DNA of 64,000 bases from an uncultured Gammaproteobacteria bacterium (GTDB lineage: Bacteria > Pseudomonadota > Gammaproteobacteria > Steroidobacterales > Foliamicaceae). The notes under the pieces were generated by a model. That model had not been told where the DNA came from, searched no databases, and worked only from the letters and a program-made list of their open reading frames with translations. Location: NCBI GenBank assembly GCA_951828235.1, contig OX639965.1:2522129-2586128 (forward strand), given 5' to 3'. Positions 2,966-41,993 of the stretch are shown one piece after another; position 1 is the stretch's first letter, and the number at the start of each line of letters is the position of its first letter. The position numbers and the translations under genes are program-made.

Positions 2966-3009
2966 CTCCTGAAAGTGGCGGCACTGCCTCGACGGTGTCC
3001 CGCCTTCCA

Positions 3010-3032
3010 CGAGGGGGGACGCCTTCGCTCCC
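3010..3032 (+). repeat. 22-bp palindromic repeat, copy 1 (diverged)
   Basis: This is the most diverged of four copies of a short GC-rich palindrome. It reads CGAGGGGGGACGCC followed by TTCGCTCCC, one base shorter and one mismatch away from the reverse complement of the copies at 25433 and 26385. It lies in the 246-bp gene-free stretch between rnfH and bamE, just outside the larger inverted-repeat element at 3050-3215. Confidence 0.55.
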
Positions 3033-3049
3033 CGGACGGGTGTTCCGGC

Positions 3050-25409: not shown

Positions 25410-26135
25410 ATGGAATACGCCGAAAACCTTGCGAGCGGGGGCGTCCCGCCCTCGAAAAGTCCGCGCCGCGGCCGGGGACGGGACTGGCCGCTTGCGGTGC
25501 TGGAACGGCCCGGCGTTCACGAGTTTCTGGGGGAGCGGGGCGCGGACCGGGCGGCGGCGCTGTCGCTGCTTCTGTGCGCCGCCGCGGGCCTGCCGGGCGC
25601 CGCCGAGAGGCGCCTGCTGTGGGTGCAGTCTCTCGCCGCCTCGCGCCGCTGGGGGCTGCCCTGCGGCGAGGGACTGGATGCCATCGGGCTGAACCCCCGC
25701 AGCGTGCTTATCGTGGAGCCGGAGACCGAACGCGAGTTGCTCTGGGTGCTGGAGCAGGCGCTGGATTGCTCCGGCCTGCTGGCGGTGGTGGGCTGCCTGC
25801 CCGGGGTGGAGCGGCATTATGGCTTCACCGCCTCTCGGCGGCTGTCGCTGCGCGCCCTGCGTAAGGGATCACGGCTTTTCCTGGCGCGCGGCGCCCGCAT
25901 CCGCGAAGCCACGTCGGCACAGACCCGCTGGCAGGTGGAACCCGCGCCCAGCGCGCCCATGGAACTTGCCTGGAGGGGGTTTGAACTGCCCGGCGCGCGA
26001 AGCTGGCGCCTGAACCTGCTGCGTGCCCCCGGCTGGACCCCCGCATCGTGGAATATTGAATGGAGCGAGCATGAGAATCGCCTGCGTATGGCTGCATCGT
26101 CTGCTGAGCCAAGCGCCGTCCGCGCCGCCGGCTGA
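25410..26135 (+). CDS. imuA: ImuA-like translesion synthesis accessory protein
   Basis: ImuA is a RecA/SulA-related accessory factor of the ImuA-ImuB-DnaE2 mutasome. The 241-residue product (start MEYAENLASGG) has LLLCAAAGL, RLLWVQSLAASRRWGLPCGEGLDAIGLNPRSVLIVEPETERELLWVLEQAL and RRLSLRALRKGSRLFL, the recognisable RecA-like core of this family, although conservation is low. Identification rests also on the adjacent imuB and dnaE2. Residues about 9-16 come from an inserted palindromic repeat (25433-25454), so the native start could be downstream, for example GTG 25496. It overlaps imuB by 65 bases. No LexA box was recognised upstream. Confidence 0.8.
   Translation: MEYAENLASGGVPPSKSPRRGRGRDWPLAVLERPGVHEFLGERGADRAAALSLLLCAAAGLPGAAERRLLWVQSLAASRRWGLPCGEGLDAIGLNPRSVLIVEPETERELLWVLEQALDCSGLLAVVGCLPGVERHYGFTASRRLSLRALRKGSRLFLARGARIREATSAQTRWQVEPAPSAPMELAWRGFELPGARSWRLNLLRAPGWTPASWNIEWSEHENRLRMAASSAEPSAVRAAG
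25433..25454 (-). repeat. 22-bp palindromic repeat, copy 2 (inside imuA)
   Basis: On the plus strand the copy contains GGGGGCGTCCCGCCCTCG, one base different from the copy at 26385-26406. It is translated in the imuA frame as SGGVPPSK. The palindrome core folds as a 6-7-bp GC stem. Confidence 0.75.
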
Positions 26136-27516
26136 ATCGGCGGTGCGGCTGCGCGCGCAGCGCCTCGAGCGCCTGGCGCAGGCGTGCTGGCGGTTTACGC
26201 CGAAGATCGCGCTTGCTCCCCCGGATGGTTTCTTCCTGGACGTTTCCGGCTCCATCGGCCTTTTCGGCGGGGAGGAAAAGCTGCTGGAAGAATTGCTGGC
26301 CGAACTCAGGCTGAGCGGCGAGCCCGTTCGGGTCTGCCTTGCGGATACGCCCGCCGCCGCCTGGGCCGGCGCCCGCGCCGCCCGGAGCGAGGGCGTCCCG
26401 CCCTCGAAGACGGATACGCGTGCCGCCTCACGTGTCGAGGCATGCACTGGTTTCGGGCAATTGCCTGTCATTCCGCCCGGCGCCGGTCTTGCGGCCATGA
26501 GCACTTGGCCAGTTGAAGCGCTGCGGCTTGATGCGGAGACCTGCGCGACCTTGCGGGAACTGGGACTGGACAGCATCGGCGCACTCGATCGCCTGCCGCC
26601 GGAATCGCTGCAGGCGCGATTCGGGGCCGAAACCGCACTGCGGCTCAAGCAGGCCGCCGGCCGGGCTCCCGAGCCTTTGGATTACCTGCCGCCGCCCCGC
26701 GATTTCCGGGCCCGGCTGGAGTTCGACAGCCCCGTCGTGCTGCAGCAACCCCTGCAGGCGGCGATCGGCGAGTTGACTGTTCGGCTTGGCGATCAATTAG
26801 CGGCTGCGGGCCTGGGCTCACGGCGCTTTGAGTTGCGCCTGCACCGTTCCGACGGCAAGCGCATCCGGCATGGCCTGCGCACGGCGCGGCTTATTCAGCC
26901 GGCCCCGCAGCTTGCCGAGCTTCTGGATGAAAAGATGCAGGCGAACGGGCCCGCGCCGGACCGCGGAGTGGGTGTAGATGCCGTCAGTCTGGTGGCTTAC
27001 GACACCGAACCGGTGTCCGCCGAGCAGGCCGACTGGCTGTCCGGCGCTTCATCGGGGATCCTCAAGGGCGACCTGGCCCGCCTGGTGGACCGGCTCTGCA
27101 GCCGCCTGGGCGCCGAAGCGGTCCGCACCCCGGTTCCGCAGGCCAGCTACCTGCCCGAGAGGCGCTGGCGGCTTGTTTCCGCCCTGGATTGCCCGCCGCC
27201 GGAGTCCTTCGTCGAGGAGCAGGGAAATTCACCCCGTGCGCCGCTCCTGCTGCTGGAACAGGCCGAGCCCGTGGACGCGGCGGCCACGACGGCCGGAGGA
27301 CCGCCGGCCTGGGTACGCTGGAGAAGCAGCGCTTACCCGCTGCGGCGTGCCCAGGGTCCCAGGCGGGTGGCGCCGGAATGGTGGCTGAGCGGCGAGCAGC
27401 CGGGGCGGGAATACTGGCTGATGGAGGATGAACGCGGCCGGCGCTTCCACCTGTACCGTGAGCTTGAGGGCGGCGCAGAGCCCTGCCGCTGGTACGTTCA
27501 GGCCCTGGCGGCCTGA
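26071..27516 (+). CDS. imuB: ImuB, Y-family polymerase-like mutasome subunit
   Basis: ImuB is a catalytically inactive Y-family polymerase relative that links the beta clamp, ImuA and DnaE2. I take the ATG at 26071 (MRIACVWLHRLLSQ), within the imuA overlap, giving 481 residues. Visible regions are RFTPKIALAPPDGFFLDVSGSIGLFGGEE (palm, lacking the DE metal residues of active polymerases), ELGLDSIGALDRLPPESLQARFG (thumb helix-hairpin-helix), the little-finger domain, and a C-terminal tail. Residues near 106-113 (SEGVPPSK) are encoded by an inserted copy of the 22-bp palindrome in the palm/thumb linker. Confidence 0.88.
   Translation: MRIACVWLHRLLSQAPSAPPAESAVRLRAQRLERLAQACWRFTPKIALAPPDGFFLDVSGSIGLFGGEEKLLEELLAELRLSGEPVRVCLADTPAAAWAGARAARSEGVPPSKTDTRAASRVEACTGFGQLPVIPPGAGLAAMSTWPVEALRLDAETCATLRELGLDSIGALDRLPPESLQARFGAETALRLKQAAGRAPEPLDYLPPPRDFRARLEFDSPVVLQQPLQAAIGELTVRLGDQLAAAGLGSRRFELRLHRSDGKRIRHGLRTARLIQPAPQLAELLDEKMQANGPAPDRGVGVDAVSLVAYDTEPVSAEQADWLSGASSGILKGDLARLVDRLCSRLGAEAVRTPVPQASYLPERRWRLVSALDCPPPESFVEEQGNSPRAPLLLLEQAEPVDAAATTAGGPPAWVRWRSSAYPLRRAQGPRRVAPEWWLSGEQPGREYWLMEDERGRRFHLYRELEGGAEPCRWYVQALAA
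26385..26406 (-). repeat. 22-bp palindromic repeat, copy 3 (inside imuB)
   Basis: The core GAGGGCGTCCCGCCCTC is a perfect 7-bp inverted repeat around a 3-base loop. It is read in the imuB frame as SEGVPPSK and begins a stretch of about 20 residues (to TGFGQLP) that looks unlike the family. It differs from copy 2 at a single base in the shared 22. Confidence 0.78.
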
Positions 27517-27542: not shown

Positions 27543-30500
27543 ATGACACAGGCCTACGCCGAACTGGCGGCGGCAAGCAACTTCTCCTTTCTGCGCGGCG
27601 CCTCTCACCCGGCGGAAATGATCGACCGGGCCGCGGAACTGGGGCTGGCGGCTATCGGGCTGGCCGATTGCAACAGCGTGTCCGGCCTGGTAAGGGGCCA
27701 TGTCGCGGCGCGCGAGGCCGGTATCCGCTTTCTTCCGGGCGCGCGCCTTCAGCCCCGTGACGGACCGGAAGTCATCTGCTATCCGCGCGACCGCGCCGCA
27801 TGGGGCCGCCTGTGCCGCCTGCTCACCCTTGGAAAGAGGCGGGCCGCAAAGGGTCAATGCGAATTCAGCCTGACGGAACTCTGCGCGCATGCCCGGGGGC
27901 AGGTGCTGCTGGTCGTCCCGCCCCGCGCCCTGCGGGAGATATCCGGTCTGGCGCGCCTGACCAACGCCGGCGCTCACCGGGTGGCGCTGGCCGCGCCGCT
28001 GTTGTTCGACGGCGGCGACGCGGTGCGCCTCAAGTGGCTGGAGGAACGGGCCGAGCAATGGTCCATCCCGATGGTGGCCGTGGCCGATGCGTGGATGCAT
28101 GCGCCGGAGCGCAAGTCGATCGCCGACGTTCTGGTCTGTGTGCGCGAGGGCGTGACTATCGATAGCGCGGGTTTCCGGCTTGAGGCCAATGCCGAGCGGC
28201 ATTTGCGCGCGCCGCAGGACATGTTGCGGCTGTACGAGGGCCACGAGCAAGCCGTGGCGCGCAGCGTCGAGTTCGCGGAGGAGTGCCGCTTTAGCCTGGA
28301 AGAACTCCGTTACGAATACCCGGACGAACAGGCCCCCAAAGGCTATACCCGCCAGCAATGGCTGGAGCAACTGACCTGGGAATCGGCCGGGAAGCGCTAC
28401 CCGGAGGGCATTCCCGGGCGGGTCCGCAAGATGGTCGAACACGAACTCGAGCTGATCCGGGAACTGGATTACGCACCGTACTTCCTGACCATCTACGACC
28501 TGGTCCGCTACGCGAGAGAGCAGGGAATCCTGTGCCAGGGTCGGGGCAGCGCCGCCAATTCCGCGGTTTGCTTTTGTCTGGGCATTACCGCCGTGGACCC
28601 GGAAAAGATCGACCTGCTGTTCGAACGGTTCATCTCCAGCGATCGTGGCGAACCTCCCGATATCGACGTGGATTTCGAGCACGAGCGGCGCGAGGAAGTC
28701 ATTCAATATCTATACGAACGCTATGGCCGCGAACGCGCCGGTCTGACCGCCACGGTCATTCACTACCGGCCGCGCAGCGCGTTGCGCGAGCTGGGCAAGG
28801 CGCTGGGACTGCCGCACGCGACCCGGGACGCGCTGGCCGGGCGCATCTGGGGACGCGAGGGGGGCTGGCCCGACGAAGCGCGGGTGAGGGCGCTGGGCCT
28901 GGATCCGGAGCACCCGCGGCTGAAGCGGACCATCGAAATGGCCGCCGAACTGGTCGGGTTTCCCCGTCATCTGTCCCAGCATCCGGGCGGCATGGTGCTG
29001 ACCAGCGGGCGTCTGGACGAGGTGGTGCCGATCGCCAACGCGGCGATGGCGGGGCGCACCATGATCGAGTGGGACAAGAACGACCTGGACGACCTCAAGA
29101 TGCTGAAGGTGGACGTGCTGGCTCTGGGCATGCTGACCTGCCTCAGAAAGTGCCTGGACCTGCTTGGCCGGCACCATGGCCGCAAGCTGACGCTGGCTTC
29201 CATCCCCGCGGAAGACCCGGCGGTTTACGACATGCTGTGCAAGGCGGACTCGATCGGCGTGTTCCAGGTTGAGAGCCGGGCGCAGATGAGCTTTCTCCCG
29301 CGCATGCGCCCGCGCTGCTTCTACGACCTGGTTATCGAGGTGGCGATCGTGCGGCCCGGGCCGATACAGGGCGACATGGTCCACCCGTATCTGCGCCGCC
29401 GGCACGGCGAAGAGCCGGTGTCCTATCCCTCCCCGGAGCTTAGGCGGGTCCTGGCCAACACGCTGGGCGTGCCACTGTTCCAGGAACAGGCGATGCGCAT
29501 TGCGGTAGTGGCGGCCGGGTTCAGCCCCGCGCAGGCGGACGCGCTGCGCCGCTCCATGGCGACTTTCCGGCATGCCGGCACGGTGAAGGATTTTCGCGAG
29601 AAGTTCGTGGGCGGCATGATCCGGCGCGGTTATTCCACGGAGTTCGCGGAGCGCTGCTTCAGCCAGATCGAGGGATTCGGCGAGTATGGATTTCCCGAGA
29701 GCCACGCCGCGTCTTTCGCAATCCTGGTCTACGCGTCGGCGTGGTTCAAGCGCCACTATCCGGAGGTTTTTGCCTGCGCGCTTCTCAACAGCCAGCCCAT
29801 GGGGTTCTATGCGCCGGCACAGATCGTGCGCGACGCCCGCGAGCATGGCGTGACCGTGTTGCCGGTGGATGTTAATGAGAGCGAAATGGACTCGATCCTG
29901 GCCCCGGACGGCGCCGGCGGGCTGGCCGTGCGCCTGGGATTGCGGCAGGTGCGGGGGCTGAGTGGGCGGACGGCGAAACGCCTGGTCAGCGAGCGTGAAC
30001 ACGGCTACGAAGACATCCCCGGCTTGCGCCGCCGGGCGAGGCTGGACAAGGGCGCTTTGCGCCGCCTGGCGCGCGCCGATGCATTCGAATCGATGGGGCT
30101 TGGCGGTCGGCGCGCCCTGTGGGAAGTCGAGCGGCTGCCCGTGGGCGGCCCACTGCCGCTGTTTTCGGCGGCCGGCGTGGACGACCTTCCCGATGAATTG
30201 GCGGCTGAACTGCCGGTGGAGCCGCCCGGGGAGCGCGTGCTACGCGACTACGGTGCAGTGGGCCTGAGTCTCAAGGGGCACCCGCTGACCTTTGTGCGCG
30301 CGCAATTGGGGGCATTGGGGTACTGGACCGCGGCTGCGGTCTCGGAGGCGGTTTCCGGTGAGCTGTGCGCCGCGGCCGGCCTGGTGCTCGTGCGCCAGGC
30401 CCCGCAAAGCGCCGAAGGCGTGGTTTTTCTGACCCTGGAAGACGAGACCGGCGTGGTCAACGTGGTGAACTGGCCCGGCGTTTTCCGGCGTTATCGCGAT

Positions 30501-30677
30501 ACGCTGATGTCGTCGGTTTTGCTGGGCGTAAGGGGCGAGATTCAGCGCGAGAACGACGTCATACACCTGGTGGCCCGCCGCCTGGAGAACCTTTCGGACC
30601 TGCTCGGAACGCTGGCCGCTGCGCCCGTTGCGGCGCCACATACGGCCCGCCTGACTCCGCGCCTCGGCCGCGCCTGA
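27543..30677 (+). CDS. dnaE2: Error-prone DNA polymerase DnaE2
   Basis: DnaE2 is the damage-tolerant C-family polymerase of the ImuA/ImuB/DnaE2 system. The 1044-residue product starts with the PHP domain (YAELAAASNFSFLRGASHPAEMIDRA), then the polymerase core with catalytic acidic residues in EPPDIDVDFEHERREEVIQYLYERYG and CQGRGSAANSAVCF, the EWDKNDLDDLKMLKVDVLALGML block, finger and helix-hairpin-helix regions, and a C-terminal OB fold (LVLVRQAPQSAEGVVFLTLEDETG). It is shorter than replicative DnaE, as expected. It lies 26 bases after imuB. Confidence 0.95.
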   Translation: MTQAYAELAAASNFSFLRGASHPAEMIDRAAELGLAAIGLADCNSVSGLVRGHVAAREAGIRFLPGARLQPRDGPEVICYPRDRAAWGRLCRLLTLGKRRAAKGQCEFSLTELCAHARGQVLLVVPPRALREISGLARLTNAGAHRVALAAPLLFDGGDAVRLKWLEERAEQWSIPMVAVADAWMHAPERKSIADVLVCVREGVTIDSAGFRLEANAERHLRAPQDMLRLYEGHEQAVARSVEFAEECRFSLEELRYEYPDEQAPKGYTRQQWLEQLTWESAGKRYPEGIPGRVRKMVEHELELIRELDYAPYFLTIYDLVRYAREQGILCQGRGSAANSAVCFCLGITAVDPEKIDLLFERFISSDRGEPPDIDVDFEHERREEVIQYLYERYGRERAGLTATVIHYRPRSALRELGKALGLPHATRDALAGRIWGREGGWPDEARVRALGLDPEHPRLKRTIEMAAELVGFPRHLSQHPGGMVLTSGRLDEVVPIANAAMAGRTMIEWDKNDLDDLKMLKVDVLALGMLTCLRKCLDLLGRHHGRKLTLASIPAEDPAVYDMLCKADSIGVFQVESRAQMSFLPRMRPRCFYDLVIEVAIVRPGPIQGDMVHPYLRRRHGEEPVSYPSPELRRVLANTLGVPLFQEQAMRIAVVAAGFSPAQADALRRSMATFRHAGTVKDFREKFVGGMIRRGYSTEFAERCFSQIEGFGEYGFPESHAASFAILVYASAWFKRHYPEVFACALLNSQPMGFYAPAQIVRDAREHGVTVLPVDVNESEMDSILAPDGAGGLAVRLGLRQVRGLSGRTAKRLVSEREHGYEDIPGLRRRARLDKGALRRLARADAFESMGLGGRRALWEVERLPVGGPLPLFSAAGVDDLPDELAAELPVEPPGERVLRDYGAVGLSLKGHPLTFVRAQLGALGYWTAAAVSEAVSGELCAAAGLVLVRQAPQSAEGVVFLTLEDETGVVNVVNWPGVFRRYRDTLMSSVLLGVRGEIQRENDVIHLVARRLENLSDLLGTLAAAPVAAPHTARLTPRLGRA

Positions 30678-40301: not shown

Positions 40302-41132
40302 ATGCCGAAAGCAACGCGTAGGACCTTTATCGGGGGTGCCGTAGCCGCCGCCGGATTGCAGGGCGCGGGGGCGCATGAGCGACCGGAGGACAGTGTGCTG
40401 TTCGTTCTGGTGCACGGCACCGGCCACGGCGGCTGGTGCTGGAAATTCGTGCGCGACATTCTCCACGAGCAGGGACACCGGGTGTATACGCCCACCCTGA
40501 CCGGCTGCGGCGAGCGCTCGCACCTGCTGCATCCCGACATCGGGCTTGACCTGCATATTCAGGACATCCTCAACGTGCTTGAATGGGAAGAGCTTGAAGA
40601 TGTGGTGCTGGTGGGCCATTCCTACGCCGGGCTGGTGATTTCCGGAGTGGCGGACCGGGCAAAGGACAGGCTGCGCCATCTGGTCTATCTCGATGCGATC
40701 ATCCCGCGCGACGGCGACAGCCTGCTGTCGGCGCGCCGGGACATCAGCGCGGAGGAAATGGCGGCCAACAAGGATCAGTTGCGCCGGATTGCACCGGACG
40801 GCAACTATGTCGTCGGGTTTTCCGCCCAGCGTTTCGGAATTCCTCCGGAGCCGCCGGAAGTCGTGGCCTGGGTGGAGCGCCGGCTGACCCCGCACCCGCT
40901 CAAGAGCTGGCTGGACCCGGTCAGGTTCGAGAGCGGCGGCGAAGAAGGCGTGCCCTGCACCTTCATCGAATGCACCGAACCGGCCATGCCGGGCAGCGGG
41001 CTGAACAGCCACGCCCGATATGCGCAGGAGCACCCGGACTGGCGATATGTGGAGCTCAAGACCGGCCACGACGCCATGGTGACCGAGCCGCAAGCCTGCG
41101 CCGACCTGTTCCTGGCCGCCGCCCGCTCCTAG
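40302..41132 (+). CDS. Alpha/beta hydrolase (EstC/salicylate-esterase-like), Tat-exported, copy 1
   Basis: The 276-residue product has a twin-arginine signal (TRRTFIGGAVAAAGLQGAGA), then a small alpha/beta hydrolase of the plant-MES/EstC-like group: oxyanion loop FVLVHGTGHGGWCW, nucleophile Ser in VLVGHSYAGLVISG, and the catalytic His in KTGHDAMVTEPQA. Substrate unknown; relatives hydrolyse small carboxyl esters. It is 33 bases after sppA and is followed directly by a close paralogue. Confidence 0.85.
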   Translation: MPKATRRTFIGGAVAAAGLQGAGAHERPEDSVLFVLVHGTGHGGWCWKFVRDILHEQGHRVYTPTLTGCGERSHLLHPDIGLDLHIQDILNVLEWEELEDVVLVGHSYAGLVISGVADRAKDRLRHLVYLDAIIPRDGDSLLSARRDISAEEMAANKDQLRRIAPDGNYVVGFSAQRFGIPPEPPEVVAWVERRLTPHPLKSWLDPVRFESGGEEGVPCTFIECTEPAMPGSGLNSHARYAQEHPDWRYVELKTGHDAMVTEPQACADLFLAAARS

Positions 41133-41148
41133 TGTCGTGACATGACAC
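41131..41148. repeat. Short palindrome AGTGTCGTGACATGACAC, copy B
   Basis: This copy differs at two bases from the one after dnaK (9451-9469). It begins at the stop codon of hydrolase copy 1, repeating the post-stop position of copy A. The shared 10-base block AGTGTCGTGA and the dyad GTGTC/GACAC argue for a dispersed unit rather than chance. Confidence 0.55.
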
Positions 41149-41200
41149 CAGGAACGACGGCGTCTTCTTCCTCGAAGCCGGCGATCAAGCTCTACGCACC

Positions 41201-41956
41201 CTGGACGCAGTAACGTTTGTCCTGGTTCACGGCACCGGCCACGGCGGCTGGTGCTGGAGATTCGTTCGCGGAATCCTGGAAGGGAAGGGGCATCGGGTGT
41301 ATACGCCCACGCTTACCGGATGCGGCGAGCGGTCCCACCTGCTTCGCCCTGACATCGGGCTCGATACGCACATTACCGACATCGTCAACCTGCTCAAGTG
41401 GGAGGAGTTGGCGGACGTGGTGCTGGTGGGTCATTCCTACGGCGGATGCGTCGTCTCCGGCGTTGCGGACCGGGCCAAGAAACGACTGCGGCACCTGGTG
41501 TACCTGGACACGGTTGTCTTGCGCGATGGCGAGAGCCTGGTCGGTTCGCGCCGGCAGATGAGCGATGCGGAAAGCGATGCGGATATTGAGCGAAGGCGCA
41601 GCATGGCGCCCGACGGAAAATACATCGTGGCGCGCTCGGGAGAGCTGTACGGGATTCCACGCGAGCCCGCGGAAATCCTTGCGTGGGTGGATCGAAGGCT
41701 GACTCCCCATCCCCTGAAGAGTTGGCTGGACCCGGTCAAATTCGAGAACGGCGGCGAGGAGGGCGTGCCCAGGACCTTCATCCGCTGCACCGATCCTGAA
41801 ATGCCCTACAGCGGAATCAGGGACCACGCGATGTTTGCGAGGGAGCACCCGCAATGGCGGTACGAGGAACTGGCCACCGGTCACGACGCCATGGTGACCG
41901 CACCCCGGGCCCTCGCGGACCTGATACTGGCCGCCGCGCAGTCTGTTTCGCAGTGA
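41201..41956 (+). CDS. Alpha/beta hydrolase, copy 2, start codon unresolved
   Basis: This is a tandem paralogue of the preceding hydrolase, with matching blocks HGTGHGGWCW, VYTPTLTGCGERSHLL, LVGHSYGGCVVSGVADRAK (nucleophile Ser), RRLTPHPLKSWLDPV and ATGHDAMVTAP (His). The coding frame is open back to a stop at 41138-41140, but contains no ATG, GTG or TTG before 41297, and starting there would delete the oxyanion HG loop. CTG at 41201 (LDAVTFVLVHGTG) is the only plausible near-cognate start; I use it provisionally. A frameshift from ATG 41142 is the alternative. No export signal is present, unlike copy 1. Confidence 0.65.
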   Translation: MDAVTFVLVHGTGHGGWCWRFVRGILEGKGHRVYTPTLTGCGERSHLLRPDIGLDTHITDIVNLLKWEELADVVLVGHSYGGCVVSGVADRAKKRLRHLVYLDTVVLRDGESLVGSRRQMSDAESDADIERRRSMAPDGKYIVARSGELYGIPREPAEILAWVDRRLTPHPLKSWLDPVKFENGGEEGVPRTFIRCTDPEMPYSGIRDHAMFAREHPQWRYEELATGHDAMVTAPRALADLILAAAQSVSQ

Positions 41957-41976
41957 GGGCGGGACCGCCCTCGCTC
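41955..41976 (+). repeat. 22-bp palindromic repeat, copy 4
   Basis: GAGGGCGG and CCGCCCTC form an 8-bp stem around GA, followed by GCTC as in the other copies. It starts at the stop codon of hydrolase copy 2 and lies in the 37-bp gap facing the convergent sufT stop, so it may also act as a bidirectional terminator. A partial second unit (CGCCCTCGCTC) follows at about 41986-41996. Confidence 0.7.
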
Positions 41977-41993
41977 CCGGGAAACGCCCTCGC

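Follow-up and report, generated by a model that had tools for sequence, protein, structure and literature searches.

The window analysed here, a 64-kb stretch of DNA from a 3.11-Mb gammaproteobacterial genome, contains the mutasome operon imuA-imuB-dnaE2 together with copies of a short palindromic repeat, two of them within the first two genes of the operon and two in gaps between genes (Table 1). No REP was seen in dnaE2. The copies at 25433-25454 and 26385-26406, on the plus strand, exist as originally predicted, and each is read as (S)xGVPPSK in the frame of its gene, ImuA or ImuB; their 19-bp cores (CGAGGGCGTCCCGCCCTCG) differ at a single base. This core occurs in the window once with one mismatch and once with none, the chance value being 0.15 at ≤3 mismatches. 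The sister copies assigned to gaps, at 3010-3032 and 41955-41976, are likewise real, but they are not near-identical as had been claimed, both being minus-oriented and decayed. At the latter, the TGA stop (41954-41956) of a hydrolase-like ORF (41297-41956) overlaps the first REP bases. The same part of the window holds two direct repeats of 300 bp each (40400-41514), 78% identical and 815 bp apart, perhaps representing tandem duplicated hydrolase-like ORFs.

Table 1. Features of the mutasome operon and of the REP copies in the 64-kb window, with the sequence of the REP unit.
Feature	Coordinates	Strand	Evidence or comment
imuA	25410..26135	+	NCBIfam NF033429 ImuA, E 4.9e-11, below curated cut-off; position in imuA-imuB-dnaE2 operon
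REP unit, imuA N-terminus region	25430..25454	+	decayed head; reads ASGGVPPSK
imuB, Y-family-like	26071..27516	+	weak DNA polymerase IV matches; Pol IV structure profile match, E 1.6e-11; orthologues in order
REP unit in imuB	26381..26406	+	head (C)CCGGAGC and hairpin GAGGGCG-TCC-CGCCCTC(G); reads RSEGVPPSK
Whole in-frame insertion, 69 bp, +23 residues	26385..26453	+	DNA and protein alignments; both ends ambiguous by several bases
dnaE2, third mutasome operon gene	27543..30677	+	NF004225 error-prone DNA polymerase, 1399 bits
Degenerate REP doublet, includes 3010-3032	2994..3041	-	gap separating convergent genes
REP with one-base insertion	41955..41980	-	overlaps upstream ORF stop codon; convergent ORFs either side
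REP unit, head and core			CCTGGGAGC-GAGGGCGTCCCGCCCTC

The genome-wide count proposed alongside the original prediction confirmed a dispersed, high-copy repeat: exact matches to the 17-bp core GAGGGCGTCCCGCCCTC number 36, and copies at ≤2 mismatches 123, compared with 3 for a reversed-pattern control (statements for the whole genome derive from such pattern counts and from ~311 kb of stretches around the matches). Flank alignment of 100 copies defined a unit that opens with a 9-nt head, CCYGGGARC, and continues into a hairpin, whose 7-bp stem encloses a 3-nt TCC loop. The repeat is thus a palindrome, as first described, but the 22-bp length given for it was too short, as the head precedes the hairpin. 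An inverted partner copy lies 2-4 nt downstream in 30 of the 100 matches, at a spacing of exactly 3 nt in 25, and the resulting head-to-head doublet forms a unit of ~54 bp with a head at each end and a longer hairpin, as in REPINs. Measured against the consensus, the partner stems carry 17 two-sided compensatory, 3 two-sided non-compensatory and 33 one-sided changes, a count that is indicative, since partners were chosen by their resemblance to the consensus. A dispersed, high-copy palindrome within the 20-50 nt range is characteristic of REPs. A conserved head stands at the 5' foot of the present unit, but it reads GGGAR and not the canonical tetranucleotide, described as 'most often GTAG' (PMC8266576). 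Its head, stem, loop and inverted doublets place the family among REP/REPIN elements (PMC3116915, PMC8266576), with an atypical head. A literature search found no published description of the repeat sequence.

Within imuB, the REP forms the left part of a larger insertion. A protein search of the genus with ImuB gave alignments that break at query residues 121/145-149 in every congener with the gene, and DNA alignment revealed 69 bp (23 codons) in the imuB of the window that are absent from five congeners. The corresponding 23 residues are missing from these congeners and from nine ImuBs of other families, identifying the insertion as derived; none of these relatives, which lack the DNA repeat, has GVPPSK at this site. 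The left edge of the insert falls at the REP head, give or take a few bases, and the REP itself folds into an 8-bp stem with a 3-nt loop (-10.1 kcal/mol, z -3.0). Of the insert, only the first ~28 bases are repeated elsewhere; the ~45 bp downstream of the REP form a tail that has no match elsewhere in the genus, so a REP or REPIN was not simply copied into this site. The tail might represent the second half of a doublet in decayed form, or have arisen separately. The profile alignment of ImuB to a solved DNA polymerase IV starts directly after the insertion site, which, viewed against the general architecture of Y-family polymerases, places the insert in a loop at the palm-thumb junction. A literature search found no report of ImuB together with REPs. 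Separately, three congeners (G004, G005, G008) gave no ImuB match at E≤0.001 in genomes that are 91-94% complete, suggesting that the mutasome has been lost in part of the genus.

In imuA the REP encodes residues ~9-17, in a tail ahead of the conserved WPLAVLERPG, and is probably translated. The ImuA tails of congeners upstream of this motif have other lengths, sequences and start codons, and in DNA alignments with congeners the tail is unalignable and the boundary of an insert not resolvable. The proposal that the repeat was inserted in both genes therefore stands for ImuB, where the 69-bp insertion is derived, and for ImuA is limited to the presence of the sequence, in a tail lacking a clean empty site.

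Approximately 10 of the 89 loci, as placed by gene calling with a simple hexamer model, lie inside a gene or at its N-terminus, and most of the loci are extragenic, as is usual for REPs. Beyond the mutasome, in-gene hosts, named by their Pfam domains, are CysS, a TonB receptor, a hydantoinase, BirA, an ABC auxiliary protein, YchF, an acyltransferase E2 and TsaB, and the encoded peptides include EGVSPS, GGRPAL-HEGGTPS, GRASRP, EGGTPS and QGETPS. The repeat had been suggested to be tolerated in the operon because its one frame is open in that orientation. However, head and core together are stop-free in all six frames and in-gene copies use at least four combinations of frame and orientation, at least three of them different from that of the mutasome copies; the argument from a shared frame thereby falls, and the common frame of the two copies needs no explanation. 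A single ychF loop provides a graded series across congeners, holding no recognisable REP, one, a doublet or a cluster, in frame (L018 1481-1560, L280-L289). The single-copy form has a compensated stem, GAGGACG/CGTCCTC, and the doublet folds with a z of -5.05.

The core is found at ≤1 mismatch in seven of eight congeners, in 3 to 109 copies, with 0 in the remaining one, and 30 other genomes of the order gave a single chance-level match. A scan of 84,980 species for exact matches to a 23-mer of the repeat reached well beyond the genus: among the matches listed were many Chloroflexales (Chloroploca, Viridilinea, Oscillochloris), several gammaproteobacterial MAGs, Thiocystis, a betaproteobacterial MAG, Azoarcus and a Porphyromonadaceae MAG (Bacteroidota). 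Several of these carriers are MAGs, for which a binning error is possible in single cases, and the Chloroflexales matches are numerous and agree with one another. An inverted partner often follows the 23-mer in genomes beyond the genus as well.

Searches of the genome and its eight congeners with Pfam Y1_Tnp, NCBIfam NF047646 and the RAYT protein of L224 as queries detected no Y1 transposase or RAYT above threshold. Of the hallmarks of a REPtron, a RAYT in the same genome is thus not detected here, and two other genomes have a RAYT gene with this REP on both sides. One of these, a gammaproteobacterial MAG (L224), encodes an intact RAYT of 201 aa (NF047646, 104 bits against a cut-off of 80), with a REP upstream and a degraded inverted copy downstream, each with a GATTGGAAT tail (L224 1079-1850). 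In the other, a betaproteobacterial MAG, two head-out REPs exactly enclose an internally deleted RAYT (L252 1310-1700; same place in L171), which is a MITE-like remnant. Furthermore, one REP sits directly downstream of a sub-cut-off RAYT in L225. In the other genomes that carry the REP, most Y1 transposase loci lie away from any copy of it, L224 and L252 being the only bracketed cases. As the genus has no detectable RAYT, we infer the mobiliser from these other taxa: the family would be RAYT-mobilised and now orphaned in the genus, following past mobilisation in the lineage.

We therefore consider it very likely that the repeat is a REP/REPIN family, a RAYT-type miniature mobile DNA that is an orphan in this genus, and that its ImuB and ImuA copies are tolerated passengers. 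The biochemistry of RAYTs and the definition of REPINs are taken from earlier work (PMC8266576, PMC3116915). In the proposed course of events, RAYT (TnpA-REP) transposases would move non-autonomous hairpin REPs and REPINs via single-stranded DNA, and in the genus the REP population would persist as orphans with no detectable RAYT. Most copies lie between genes and a minority would have landed in protein loops, linkers and termini, where they may survive because the unit is stop-free in every frame. A single event would have brought the REP together with a further ~45 bp, a total of 69 bp, into the reading frame of ImuB at its palm-thumb junction, and the imuA REP would have been incorporated into the N-terminal tail. 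The resulting peptides are most likely passengers rather than functional peptides. The idea of a small mobile palindrome adding peptide linkers is consequently supported for the dispersed palindrome and the in-frame ImuB peptide, and not for an ImuA linker gained by insertion.

The strand distribution of the copies may bear on how they arrived. In the genome of the window, isolated REPs between 1.6 and 2.8 Mb, a region of positive GC-skew, are oriented 25:1 on the plus strand, and those between 0 and 1.0 Mb show no bias (13:16; Fisher P 3e-5 between regions). The bias could reflect single-strand, replication-linked insertion. It might also be taken as the mark of a site-recognition motif maintained by selection, such as a nucleoid or chromosome-organisation site, rather than a mobile element, but this is highly improbable: bias is missing from 0 to 1.0 Mb, copy number ranges from 0 to 109 among congeners, doublets and the RAYT association indicate mobility, and single-stranded DNA transposition can yield strand bias too. 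A broader scenario, in which one and the same REP moves from phylum to phylum (Chloroflexi, Gamma- and Betaproteobacteria, Bacteroidota), amplifies in RAYT-less genera, inserts via single-stranded DNA during replication with a strong bias for one strand and repeatedly decorates DNA-repair proteins of the mutasome, appears rather unlikely.

Other explanations concern the two mutasome copies themselves. An ancestral protein origin of GVPPSK, with the likeness of the two sites a coincidence, has a probability close to nil: short palindromes can arise in GC-rich coding sequence, but the excess over the control count is large and the peptide is absent at the ImuB site in all relatives compared, which rules out ancestry in ImuB (five congeners, nine genomes of other families). 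Adaptive inserts that tune mutasome activity or mutation rate would fit the placement of two in-gene copies 952 bp apart in one operon, as chance would give 0.03 pairs this close for 10 in-gene loci (a post hoc calculation), and REPs in DnaE2, UvrABD and RecBCD of other species have prompted speculation on a mutator role (Di Nocera et al. 2013, PMC3733652). Among all 89 loci, however, 2.4 pairs within 952 bp are expected by chance, making proximity alone ordinary; moreover, the ImuA copy lies in a non-conserved tail, the remaining in-gene copies occur in unrelated proteins and congener ImuBs lack the insert. Such tuning is accordingly very unlikely, and the present data neither establish nor exclude a functional effect of the inserts. 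Also unlikely, though less so, is that the repeats act primarily as RNA-level hairpins, that is, as terminators or mRNA stabilisers, with the in-gene copies affecting how stable the transcript is between imuA and imuB. In its favour, convergent genes flank both gap copies, the hairpins are strong and REPs are known as RNA elements (PMC3733652), but no T-run follows the two mutasome hairpins, in-gene copies are inside ORFs, and dispersal and the RAYT bracket would be left unexplained, so that an RNA role is at most a secondary effect.

The family resembles RAYT-mobilised REP/REPINs, in the style of the perfect palindromes of group 3 (PMC3116915, PMC8266576), in several respects: a short head precedes a hairpin with a 3-nt loop, copies form inverted doublets, stem changes are compensatory, most copies are extragenic and the REP brackets a RAYT gene in two genomes. 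Unlike these, its head is CCYGGGARC rather than GTAG, its genus is without detectable RAYT and near-identical sequence recurs across several phyla. REPs inside genes, error-prone polymerases included, are already known: Di Nocera et al. 2013 (PMC3733652) described intragenic GTAG and CGTC REPs, in frame within CDSs, in DnaE2, Uvr, RecBCD and other repair genes at varied positions and termini, and advanced a mutator hypothesis. The present family is a different one, and its hosts are ImuB and probably the ImuA N-terminus. The placement of such an element in an error-prone repair system is borne out by the ImuB insertion, but the link between REPs and repair genes was already published in 2013. 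The comparison drawn earlier with the RPE elements of Rickettsia is apt, since RPE-4 and RPE-6 belong to REP super-families (PMC3733652) and are likewise palindromic selfish DNA that contributes peptides to unrelated proteins; they differ in being CGTC-tagged and of other sequence, whereas the present copies are mostly intergenic. Membership of the CGTC type itself was rejected: CGTC REPs have CGTC at one end, an 8-9 bp stem starting with A/T pairs and a CCA tail (PMC3733652), whereas the present unit has a 7-bp stem (GAGGGCG), with CGTC where stem and loop meet, and shows no conserved CCA tail.

ImuB thus offers a clean case of occupied and empty sites in which a REP has lengthened a translesion-synthesis protein, and the YchF allelic series, with none, one, two or many REPs in one loop among sister species, makes the dynamics of intragenic REPs measurable. 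Cross-phylum sharing, RAYT-less amplification, the ychF series and the strand bias are the main points of note. A GGGAR-headed REP family common to several phyla, with a RAYT in only some of its carriers, bears on whether REPs can be maintained, or can move, in a genome that lacks a dedicated transposase.
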